From Candidatus Wirthbacteria bacterium (GTDB taxonomy: Bacteria > Patescibacteriota > CG2-30-54-11), in NCBI GenBank assembly GCA_903889905.1, contig CAISZI010000060.1, positions 1 to 32,348 on the forward strand: a DNA stretch of 32,348 nucleotides, written 5' to 3'. Positions 17,417 to 20,766 of the stretch are shown one piece after another (the stretch's first letter is position 1; each line of letters opens with the position of its first letter). Below the pieces are notes generated by a model, which was not told the origin of the DNA, made no database searches, and saw only the letters and a list, made by a program, of their open reading frames with translations. A program made the translations under genes and the position numbers.

Positions 17417-17467
17417 CGCAGCGTCTTTACGGAACCACTGGTTAGCGACTATAATGCGGCTGCACAT

Positions 17468-17622
17468 AATCTTCGGAGGGTGGGAGAAATTCCCCACCGG
17501 TGGTGCTGAGGGGACAATTTGCTTTCCCTTGGCTATGAAAAGTCCATGAGCCTTGCTCTTGCACGAGCGGCTGATCTGGCGCAATTCCAGAACCGACGGT
17601 AAAGTCCGGATAAAAGAAGAAA
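17468..17622 (+). promoter_or_regulatory. FMN riboswitch (RFN element) aptamer
   Basis: The conserved RFN blocks appear in order: ATCTTCGGAGGGTGGGAGAA, then ATTCCCCACCGGTGGT, GAAAAGTCCATGAG, GCACGAGCGGC, TGATCTGGCGCAATTCCAG, AACCGACGGTAAAGTCCGGAT and AAAGAAGA. TCTTC (17470-17474) pairs with GAAGA (17616-17620) as P1. FMN binding normally terminates transcription or blocks translation of flavin synthesis or uptake genes. Here it precedes an ABC importer whose ATPase is fused to a flavokinase domain. A T6 run follows P1 directly (about 17624-17629). The main terminator lies 160 bases downstream, separated by a palindromic repeat. Confidence 0.93.
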
Positions 17623-17656
17623 CTTTTTTGTGGCGAATTGACTTGACTGGCGCTTT

Positions 17657-17741
17657 CGATGTCATTCCGGGTTTGACCCGGAATCTGCATTCGTCGTCAC
17701 TTGGAGGGATTAGATGCTGAATTAAGTTCAGCATGACATCG
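17657..17741. repeat. CGATGTCAT...ATGACATCG palindromic element, copy D
   Basis: Perfect 9-base inverted ends enclose two smaller hairpins, CCGGGTTTGACCCGG and ATGCTGAA...TTCAGCAT. The outer ends resemble those of the GTCATTGCGAG family (copies A-C), with a different interior. It lies inside the riboswitch leader, between aptamer and terminator. Confidence 0.7.
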
Positions 17742-17783
17742 TTAGAGTAGGATTACTCCCAAAGTCAAATTGCCATCCCCCCG

Positions 17784-17813
17784 AAGCATGAGTCAGGCGC
17801 TTATGCTTTTTTT
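17784..17813 (+). terminator. intrinsic terminator of the FMN riboswitch leader
   Basis: AAGCATGAG (17784-17792) pairs with CTTATGCTT (17800-17808), nine pairs with one wobble, followed by a T-run to 17813. It ends 11 bases before the permease ATG, the expected place for the off-state of a transcriptional riboswitch. Confidence 0.75.
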
Positions 17814-17824
17814 GTTGGGGAAAA

Positions 17825-18574
17825 ATGAAATTACGGATCAGTCGTCAGACTTGGCTTAGCTTGTTGTCGCTGCTGGTGACGGTGGCGGTGTGGATGTGGC
17901 TTGCCAGAGTGTATCCGTCGTACATTGTGCCCTCGCCGGCCAAAGTCTGGGCCAAGTGGTGGCAGCTTTCCCGGGATGGGCGCATTGCTGTGCATTTGTG
18001 GGCAACATTGTCGCCGACACTGGTGGGTTTTGTCCTGGCAACTGGTCTGGCCTTTGGCCTCGGGTATCTGGCGGCGCAGTTCAAGTGGCTGCGCGAGCTG
18101 GCCTGGCCACTGACGGTAGTGATGCAGACGGTGCCGATTGTGGCGATGCTGCCATTGCTGGTGATCTGGTTTGGTACGGGGGCGTCAACGCATACGTTGA
18201 TCATTGTCCTGGTGGCTTTTTTCCCCATGTATGTGACGGCCCTGCAAGCGTTTGGGCGTCGGAGCCGCGCATTGGAAGGCTGGATGCGAACGCTGGCGGC
18301 CGGGCGAGTGGCGCGGTTCTGGTATCTGGAATTGCCACTGGCGCTCCCGGAACTGTTTGGCGCACTTAAAGTCGGGTTTAGTTTTGCACTGATTGGCGAA
18401 GTGGTAGCCGAGCTGATGATGGGGCAGCAGGGTTTGGGATTTTTGATTAACTTTGGACGCGGTGTGCTGGATACGGCATTGGTGTTTGCAGCGCTGCTGA
18501 CGCTGATTGGTCTGGGGTTGGTGATGCAACTGGCCTTTCGACTGCTGGAAAAATATACGCTTAACTTACGCTAG
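17825..18574 (+). CDS. ABC transporter permease, probable riboflavin importer (RibX-like)
   Basis: A 249-residue inner-membrane permease of the binding-protein-dependent type with about six membrane segments. The cytoplasmic EAA-like loop is at about residues 160-190 (ELPLALPELFGALKVGFSFALIGEVVAE). It resembles SsuC/TauC/RibX permeases. It is the first gene after the FMN riboswitch and is followed by an NMT1-type binding protein and an ATPase. RibXY-type riboflavin importers with FMN riboswitches are established, so riboflavin is the likeliest substrate. The leader terminator ends just upstream, and GGGG at 17817-17820 precedes the ATG. Confidence 0.87.
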   Translation: MKLRISRQTWLSLLSLLVTVAVWMWLARVYPSYIVPSPAKVWAKWWQLSRDGRIAVHLWATLSPTLVGFVLATGLAFGLGYLAAQFKWLRELAWPLTVVMQTVPIVAMLPLLVIWFGTGASTHTLIIVLVAFFPMYVTALQAFGRRSRALEGWMRTLAAGRVARFWYLELPLALPELFGALKVGFSFALIGEVVAELMMGQQGLGFLINFGRGVLDTALVFAALLTLIGLGLVMQLAFRLLEKYTLNLR

Positions 18575-18586
18575 AGGAGGACACTG

Positions 18587-19636
18587 ATGCCTGATCATTG
18601 GGGTTGGTGGAGGAAAATAGTCCGGCTTGCAACGGTCACAAATATTTTGCTGATGGTTGTGGTTTTTTTTGGGCTGCTGGTGATAGGATTGTTGGCAGTC
18701 AAAGGAACAACGACAAAAATCAGCAGTACATCCCCACTCAAGCAAGTCCGCATTTCTCTTGGTTACATCCCCAATGTCCAGTTTGCGCCGTTTTATGCGG
18801 CGCAGAATCTGGGATATTTTGCGGAAAATGGTTTGCAGGTGACGCTGGATCACGGCATGGTGACGGACATCTTGCCACTACTCGGGAGTGGCCAAACAGA
18901 CTTTGCGATCACGGATTCGGATCAGGTGATTTTGGCGCGTAGCCAGGGAGTACCGGTCGAGTCAGTCATGGCCATATATCCTAAAACGCCAACGGGTATT
19001 GCCACGTTAGCTTCGAGCAACATCAAAACGACTGCTGACTTACGTGGCAAAAAGATTGGTATACCTGGAATGTATGGCGCGAGTTACGTGGCATTGCTGG
19101 CGTATCTGGATCTGAATGGGATGAAGGTAAGTGATGTTAATTTGCAAGCGATTGGTTATACGCAGGTGCAGGCACTGACCCAGAAATCGGTGGATGCGGT
19201 GGTTGTGTTTATGAACAATGAAGTGTTGCAGCTGGAGGATCAGGGGGTGGCAATAAATACAATTGCCTTTGGAGACCAGCTTGGATATGTCGGTCAGTCG
19301 CTGGTAGTGAGCGAGCAGGCGATCAAGGATTATCCGCAAGACGTAGCGGCTGTGATTAGGGCAATCAAGGCGGGCATGGATTATGTCCGGGCTAACCCGG
19401 ATCAAGGCATGACCATTTCTCAAAAATTTATCACTGACCTGAGCGCGAGTCAGTTGCCACTGCAAAAAAAAGTGCTGCAGGCAACCATTGTCCGTTGGTC
19501 AGAACCGGGGCAGGTACTTGGTTTTATGGATCCTTCATTGTGGCAGACGACTTATGCTGCGTTGAAAACGCAAAGTCTTTTGGGGAAACAGCTGGATGTG
19601 ACACAGGTTTATACCAATCAATTTGTGAACCCATGA
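18587..19636 (+). CDS. ABC transporter substrate-binding protein, NMT1/THI5-like (RibY-like)
   Basis: This 349-residue protein has an N-terminal membrane segment at about 12-38, then an NMT1-type binding fold: RISLGYIPNVQFAPFYAAQNLGYF, then DFAITDSDQVILARSQGVPV, and DLRGKKIGIPGMYGASYVALLAYL. I see no cysteine, so no lipobox; the protein is probably held by an uncleaved N-terminal anchor. Relatives bind pyrimidine, thiamine precursors or riboflavin; FMN-riboswitch control points to riboflavin. A strong AGGAGG precedes ATG 18587, 12 bases after the permease stop. Its stop overlaps the ATPase start as ATGA. Confidence 0.88.
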   Translation: MPDHWGWWRKIVRLATVTNILLMVVVFFGLLVIGLLAVKGTTTKISSTSPLKQVRISLGYIPNVQFAPFYAAQNLGYFAENGLQVTLDHGMVTDILPLLGSGQTDFAITDSDQVILARSQGVPVESVMAIYPKTPTGIATLASSNIKTTADLRGKKIGIPGMYGASYVALLAYLDLNGMKVSDVNLQAIGYTQVQALTQKSVDAVVVFMNNEVLQLEDQGVAINTIAFGDQLGYVGQSLVVSEQAIKDYPQDVAAVIRAIKAGMDYVRANPDQGMTISQKFITDLSASQLPLQKKVLQATIVRWSEPGQVLGFMDPSLWQTTYAALKTQSLLGKQLDVTQVYTNQFVNP

Positions 19637-20766
19637 GTCCTTTTCAAGTTAAACACCTACAGTATCAGTTTCATTCACCACAGCCCACGCCGGTATTGCG
19701 GGACGTGTCGTTTGGTCTGGACAAGGGCGAATTTGTCAGCATTGTCGGGCCGTCGGGCGCTGGCAAAAGCACGATCTTGAAACTGATGGCCGATTTGCTG
19801 CCGCTCCAGGGCGGTACGGTAACTTTGCAAAAGCATTTGCCGCAGGAAGCCCGGATACGGCGCGAATTTGCCTATGTCTTTCAGACACCGGCACTGCTGC
19901 CGTGGCGTTCCATTCGACGTAACCTGGAATTACCTTTGCAGATATCCAATCAAGCCATTGCTCCTGCCAAAATTGAACAGCTGCTGCAACTTACGGGACT
20001 GTCCGGTTTTCAGGAACATAAACCCAGCGAGCTGTCGGGAGGGATGCAGCAGCTGGCTGCGATTGCTCGGGCGTTGGTGCTTGAACCCGAACTGCTTTTG
20101 CTGGATGAACCCTTTAGCGCGCTGGACGCGGTGACGCGGGAAAAAATGAACACAGAACTGGAACGCATTGTCAGTTCAACTCACAAAACAGCGTTACTGG
20201 TAACGCACAGCATCGAGGAAGCGGTGTATCTGTCGGATCGGGTTCTGGTCTTGTCAGCGCGGCCGGGTCAGATCGGCGGGGAAGTCGTGATTGACGAGGC
20301 GCGTCCCAGATCCGCAAGCTGGCGCAAGACTAAAGCTTTTTTTGATAAGGCTGTGGCGGTACGGGAGCTACTGGAACGGGAATCCGCCACCTGGCGCGAC
20401 ATAGCAGTGGTGAGTGGCGAAGGCCGTGGCCGGACCATGGGATTTCCGACACTGAACCTCAACGTCGAAAAGTTGCCACTGCCGTATGGGGTGCATGCCG
20501 CCTGGGTCAAGATCGACGGACAGCTTTACCCATCGGCATTGCACTATGGCCCCAAGTCCACGTTTGGCGGGCACCAGGACACCGTGGAGGCGTTTGTGAT
20601 GGATTATGAGGAGAAGGCCAAGACGAAAATGGTGGACTTTGAGGTGGTGGGATTTGTGCGGTCGACAGTGAAGTTTGTTTCCAAGGAAGCGTTGGTCGCG
20701 CAGATGGAGAAAGATGTGGCGAGGACGAGGGAGATGTTGGGGGAGGGGATGAGTAGGTTGGGATAA
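19633..20766 (+). CDS. ABC transporter ATPase fused to C-terminal riboflavin kinase domain
   Basis: Residues 1-225 form an ABC ATPase of the SsuB/TauB type: Walker A GPSGAGKST at 39-47, Q-loop Gln84, signature LSGGM at 134-138, Walker B LLLLDEP at 154-160 and H-loop His192. After a helical linker, residues 262-377 form a flavokinase domain: GRGRTMGFPTLNLN at 264-277 (family GRxLGFPTAN), GVHAAWVKIDGQLYPSALHYGPKSTFG, then VEAFVMDY with candidate catalytic Glu319, and FVRSTVKFVSKEALVAQMEKD. No FAD synthetase domain is present. The start overlaps the previous stop (ATGA at 19633). The fusion suggests that imported riboflavin is trapped as FMN at the membrane. A sensing role for the domain is an alternative. 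Confidence 0.92.
   Translation: MSPFQVKHLQYQFHSPQPTPVLRDVSFGLDKGEFVSIVGPSGAGKSTILKLMADLLPLQGGTVTLQKHLPQEARIRREFAYVFQTPALLPWRSIRRNLELPLQISNQAIAPAKIEQLLQLTGLSGFQEHKPSELSGGMQQLAAIARALVLEPELLLLDEPFSALDAVTREKMNTELERIVSSTHKTALLVTHSIEEAVYLSDRVLVLSARPGQIGGEVVIDEARPRSASWRKTKAFFDKAVAVRELLERESATWRDIAVVSGEGRGRTMGFPTLNLNVEKLPLPYGVHAAWVKIDGQLYPSALHYGPKSTFGGHQDTVEAFVMDYEEKAKTKMVDFEVVGFVRSTVKFVSKEALVAQMEKDVARTREMLGEGMSRLG

Follow-up and report, generated by a model that had tools for sequence, protein, structure and literature searches.

The existence of RibXY, a ThiXYZ-like system without ATPase, was predicted on the basis of FMN riboswitches (PMC3766115), and later work showed that the RibXY of Chloroflexus aurantiacus can rescue a riboflavin-auxotrophic E. 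coli (PMC4418817). Described RibXY operons have no ATPase or, in a few Chloroflexi, a separate ATPase gene accompanying them (PMC4418817), and none is reported in these papers with a kinase. The window analysed here, which is the whole stretch of 32,348 nucleotides from Candidatus Wirthbacteria, a little-known bacterial group, harbours an operon that resembles the C. aurantiacus system (PMC4418817, PMC3766115) in presenting an FMN riboswitch upstream of tandem genes for a NitT-like permease and an NMT1-type binding protein. However, this operon has both an ATPase and a kinase, which are joined in a single polypeptide encoded by its last gene. The C-terminal part of this fusion is like the bacterial flavokinase module (the C-terminal domain of RibF/FAD synthetase, with that of C. 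ammoniagenes, CaFADS, as the example of known structure, 5a88-5a8a) in its fold, PTxN motif, catalytic Glu and Arg, but the fusion has no FMN adenylyltransferase module, its N-terminal partner being an ABC ATPase, and the D-x-Y-G motif is lost. As for the motor, NrtC and CmpC of the NrtBCD and CmpBCD importers belong to the same ATPase family and likewise carry an extra C-terminal domain on a motor subunit. In NrtC and CmpC this domain is binding-protein-like, ligand-binding and regulatory, while that of the fusion is a complete enzyme domain. No description of a kinase fused to an importer ATPase was found in the open-access literature searched, and the protein is a new domain architecture made from known parts.

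The features of the operon are collected in Table 1. A single 377-residue ORF holding a complete ABC ATPase and a flavokinase domain had been proposed in the initial annotation, and both the Pfam matches and the motif positions bore this out. The ORF is intact and starts with an ATG at 19633, in a 4-nt overlap with the stop codon of the gene for the binding protein. Its N-terminal part matched ABC_tran (PF00005, 1.3e-32, residues 22-161) and its C-terminal part Flavokinase (PF01687, 7.9e-29, residues 258-369), both far over the curated cut-offs. The motif coordinates given initially were exact, namely Walker A (GPSGAGKST, 39-47), the signature (LSGGM, 134-138), Walker B (154-160), GRTMGFPTLNL from residue 266 and Glu319. 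All the elements of an ABC importer ATPase (Walker A, Q loop, LSGGQ-like signature, Walker B and H loop) were present, with Q84, S135-Q140, D158, E159 and H192 invariant across the three fusions found in Wirthbacteria, and by its sequence the N-terminal part is a complete ATPase of the NitT/ThiXYZ type. Moreover, the full-length model was of continuous high confidence (pLDDT 93.4, pTM 0.80), and the closest well-superposed PDB matches, which concerned the ATPase part, were CmpD and NrtD. The PDB matches also included chains of 658-660 residues, which are NrtC/CmpC with their C-terminal ligand-binding domain.

Table 1. Features of the FMN-riboswitch operon, with positions in the window.
Feature	Positions	Strand	Evidence
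FMN riboswitch aptamer (RF00050)	17465..17625	+	cmscan 88.2 bits, E 4.5e-19; gathering score 66.2
Leader, aptamer to terminator; outer 14-nt inverted repeat 17631-17644 / 17762-17775	17631..17775	+	Inverted repeats
Intrinsic-terminator-like hairpin, arms 17784-17792 / 17800-17808, followed by a T run, just 5′ of the first gene	17784..17813	+	Inverted repeats
RibX-type ABC permease, 249 aa	17825..18574	+	PF00528 (BPD_transp_1) 1.8e-20
RibY-type (NMT1/THI5) flavin-binding protein (predicted), 349 aa	18587..19636	+	PF09084 6e-50; 34% over 302 aa to S. camelliae homologue
ABC ATPase-riboflavin kinase fusion protein, 377 aa	19633..20766	+	ORF, Pfam, alignment, full-length model
ABC ATPase domain, residues 1-225	19633..20307	+	PF00005; Walker A, Q84, LSGGMQQ, Walker B with E159, H192 intact
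Helices, residues 228-251, finishing the NitT-type ATPase and running directly into the kinase	20314..20385	+	Full-length model
Riboflavin kinase domain, residues 254-369; PTLN 272-275, E319, R343	20392..20739	+	PF01687; PDB matches 5a89, 5a8a, 1nb0; active-site columns

The integrity of the kinase domain was supported by the two checks that had been proposed for it initially. In the HMM comparison, the C-terminal domain matched PF01687 with 100.8 bits against a cut-off of 19.6, and the structure model (pLDDT 88.5) presented a riboflavin kinase fold, the best PDB matches by Foldseek being riboflavin kinase modules and FAD synthetases (5a8a, 5a89 and 1nb0, TM about 0.7). In an alignment of 52 sequences, comprising the three fusions and 49 non-fused homologues, T273, N275, G286, R343 and F348 were invariant, while P272, G306, E319 and D361 were nearly so and were present in the three fusions. 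Thus every active-site position checked (P272, T273, N275, G286, E319, R343, F348 and D361) was kept in all of them. In particular, E319 aligned with E268, the catalytic base of CaFADS, and PTLN with its PTAN motif at 207-210 (PMC5428420). Reading of the loop after the catalytic strand showed the D-x-Y-G motif to be absent from the three fusions. This motif is common but not universal in flavokinases and hence not a defining feature, and its loss was set aside as a sign of inactivation because the Tyr was also missing in 6 of the 49 non-fused homologues. The C-terminal domain is a complete flavokinase with its active-site residues intact, which is predicted from these to be catalytic.

The position of the gene behind an FMN riboswitch, a permease and an NMT1-type binding protein, also noted initially, was confirmed by cmscan and Pfam. 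The leader (17626-17826) folded with -79.4 kcal/mol (z = -5.7), and a palindromic repeat-like element, enclosed by a longer inverted repeat, was observed inside it at about 17655-17745. The permease was 40-43% identical to those of the two other Wirthbacteria operons. Furthermore, one FMN riboswitch was found in each of the three Wirthbacteria genomes, always on the fusion operon. That of genome G039 (L034:5130-5400) scored just 18 bits owing to extra sequence, apparently hairpins, in the loops corresponding to L2, L5 and L6, although its core strands were recognizable by hand reading. The best plasmid match of the G039 binding protein adjoins annotated ribX, riboflavin synthase and rosB genes in Streptomyces camelliae, in a roseoflavin-type cluster.

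The class and the order to which the window belongs are each represented by three genomes in the set analysed (G000, the window genome, G019 and G039), from three genera of one family. The fusion, the operon and the riboswitch were present in all three, which answered an initial suggestion to search other genomes for the fusion beside FMN riboswitches, and the three proteins aligned end to end, with 42-45% identity to the window protein and no stops. Among the three genomes, the identity was 39-62% for the kinase domain, 44-60% for the ATPase domain, 41-49% for the binding protein and 40-56% for the permease; thus the kinase domain was conserved about as well as the ATPase and the binding protein, which argues that it is under constraint. 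In the trees, the three kinase domains clustered together (support 0.94), as did the three ATPase domains (0.92), which is consistent with one fusion event followed by vertical descent. The nearest unfused Patescibacteria ATPases, near which no FMN riboswitch was found, stop close to model position 272 of 390, roughly the point at which the kinase begins in the fusions, which indicates that it was appended to a complete ATPase. The fusion had been called unusual, and among the 380 Patescibacteria genomes searched it was indeed confined to Ca. Wirthbacteria, with no case in the other 377. Beyond Patescibacteria, where pattern-seeded flavokinase matches and plasmids were searched, the 80 best GTDB flavokinase loci contained none except two Wirthbacteria contigs. 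A plasmid match (H4) with an apparent query span of 84% was rejected because the span ran past a stop codon and into a gene for a permease, and Deinococcus plasmid ATPases with 47-48% identity were located in pyrimidine-catabolism clusters, not flavin clusters. As a separate observation, the G019 ATPase (L035:1018-1190) carries an in-frame insert of ~50 residues, flanked by perfect 17-nt inverted repeats 133 nt apart, which resembles a small mobile palindromic element.

Regarding the flavin supply, exactly one PF01687 protein was present in each Wirthbacteria genome, always the fusion. Neither lumazine synthase nor a canonical FAD synthetase (PF06574) was detected in any of the three genomes, two of which have estimated completeness of 87% and 68%, while the positive controls of these searches were detected in reference genomes. 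Judged on lumazine synthase alone, Wirthbacteria seem unable to make riboflavin and would be auxotrophs. Pyr_redox-type proteins in all three genomes and MurB in two of them are expected to need FAD, and their presence despite the lack of a canonical FAD synthetase leaves the flavin economy not fully explained; import of FMN or FAD is possible. Across Patescibacteria, a flavokinase was found in 81 of 287 genomes, mostly as a free protein of ~130 residues, and a clear match to canonical FAD synthetase in only one of the 287, other matches being weak.

Operons encoding a kinase together with a predicted flavin importer were also found elsewhere, although in these the kinase is a separate protein. 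In G007 (L179), which belongs to a different family, one tandem operon with no detectable riboswitch contains the free kinase and, after it, orthologues of the permease and the binding protein, each 39% identical to its G039 counterpart; the ATPase is encoded elsewhere. In a Microgenomates MAG (L044:2943-5378), which unlike the fusion operon uses an ECF transporter, one operon contains an FMN riboswitch, an ECF S component (a weak Pfam match, under the cut-off), an ATPase, an EcfT-like protein and a free flavokinase. These two operons independently link flavokinase to import.

The operon is likely to encode a RibXY-type riboflavin importer serving an auxotroph, with a motor that carries an active kinase, the sole one, and with uptake, trapping and riboswitch feedback combined. 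RibY would capture riboflavin outside the cell and RibX would form the channel, while a dimer of the fusion protein would provide two ATPase motors and two kinase domains per importer, each subunit contributing one motor and, at its C terminus, one active ATP-dependent riboflavin kinase. Since each motor would carry the sole kinase detected, imported riboflavin would be converted to FMN at the cytoplasmic mouth of the transporter and could not leak back. The FMN would then switch the operon off via the riboswitch, with the terminator-like hairpin preceding the first gene. Uptake with immediate trapping as FMN, put forward initially, is supported by the single PF01687 protein of the genome and by the missing lumazine synthase, kinase activity and coupling to transport being predicted. 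A stricter coupling by vectorial group translocation, in which riboflavin would be phosphorylated on leaving the translocation path and FMN in the kinase site would feed back on ATP hydrolysis, is rather unlikely.

Uptake coupled to trapping was weighed against several other explanations. One of them shares the active kinase and differs solely on coupling, holding that the joining of two operon genes is a mere organisational convenience that ensures co-expression at a fixed stoichiometry. The fusion of Patescibacteria flavokinases to other partners (L127; L137 and L140) and the separate-gene operon of G007 speak for this explanation, which is possible yet doubtful, as flavokinase is joined here to the motor of the importer itself and has stayed so in three divergent genera, although this is no proof of coupling. 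A regulatory role, alone or added, is a serious rival because, as NrtC and CmpC illustrate, ATPases of this family can accommodate ligand-binding domains at their C terminus. A flavin sensor gating the ATPase had been offered initially as the alternative to trapping; it gained a structural precedent in NrtC of NrtBCD but need not exclude catalysis, and a sensing role of the kinase domain in addition to catalysis is possible by analogy. That the domain is mainly a sensor, with bound FMN or riboflavin exerting trans-inhibition on the ATPase like the C-terminal domains of NrtC, MetN and ModC, and with catalysis weak or lost, is improbable: the loss of D-x-Y-G in the three fusions and the relationship to NrtD/CmpD, whose partner subunits NrtC/CmpC carry the ligand-binding domain, would fit it, whereas the catalytic Glu, PTxN and invariant Arg are retained and no detected flavokinase would remain in these genomes if the domain were purely a sensor, a gap that only import of FMN itself would fill.

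The importer might instead transport something else, for instance a thiamin precursor like its ThiXYZ relatives, with the riboswitch and the kinase being coincidental. Relatives of the binding protein with solved structures include 3ix1, which binds formyl-aminopyrimidine, and THI5, and RibXY homologues elsewhere are governed by thiamine or other regulators (PMC4418817). However, all three operons have an FMN riboswitch, the flavokinase shares a polypeptide with the ATPase, and the binding protein is akin to one of a roseoflavin-type cluster, which makes this very improbable. An assembly or frameshift error joining two genes, raised initially as what would undo the fusion, is hardly credible. 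Although the window genome is a draft of 66 contigs (1.99 Mb, 97% estimated completeness) and the genomes of its two relatives are listed as MAGs, the full-length model is continuous and of high confidence, and the same stop-free architecture recurs in independent assemblies from two other genera; it is therefore not due to chance or to an assembly join.

The fusion thus probably unites the importer motor with the only detectable FMN-forming enzyme of the genome, riboflavin being pulled in and trapped in one step. If true, it would represent an ABC importer whose motor subunit bears the enzyme converting the transported vitamin, and the old question of uptake driven or retained by coupled phosphorylation would become testable in one polypeptide. 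It also suggests a way in which auxotrophic Patescibacteria secure scarce flavins, and provides a physical (Rosetta-stone) link backing RibXY-type annotations.

Finally, other flavokinase fusions were observed within Patescibacteria. In G081 (L127:697-1875), a riboflavin synthase with two Lum_binding domains is fused to flavokinase, which brings FMN formation together with the final reaction of riboflavin synthesis on one chain. In two genera of one family (L137:1000-1959 and L140:1471-2370), flavokinase is fused N-terminally to a 5-formyltetrahydrofolate cyclo-ligase.
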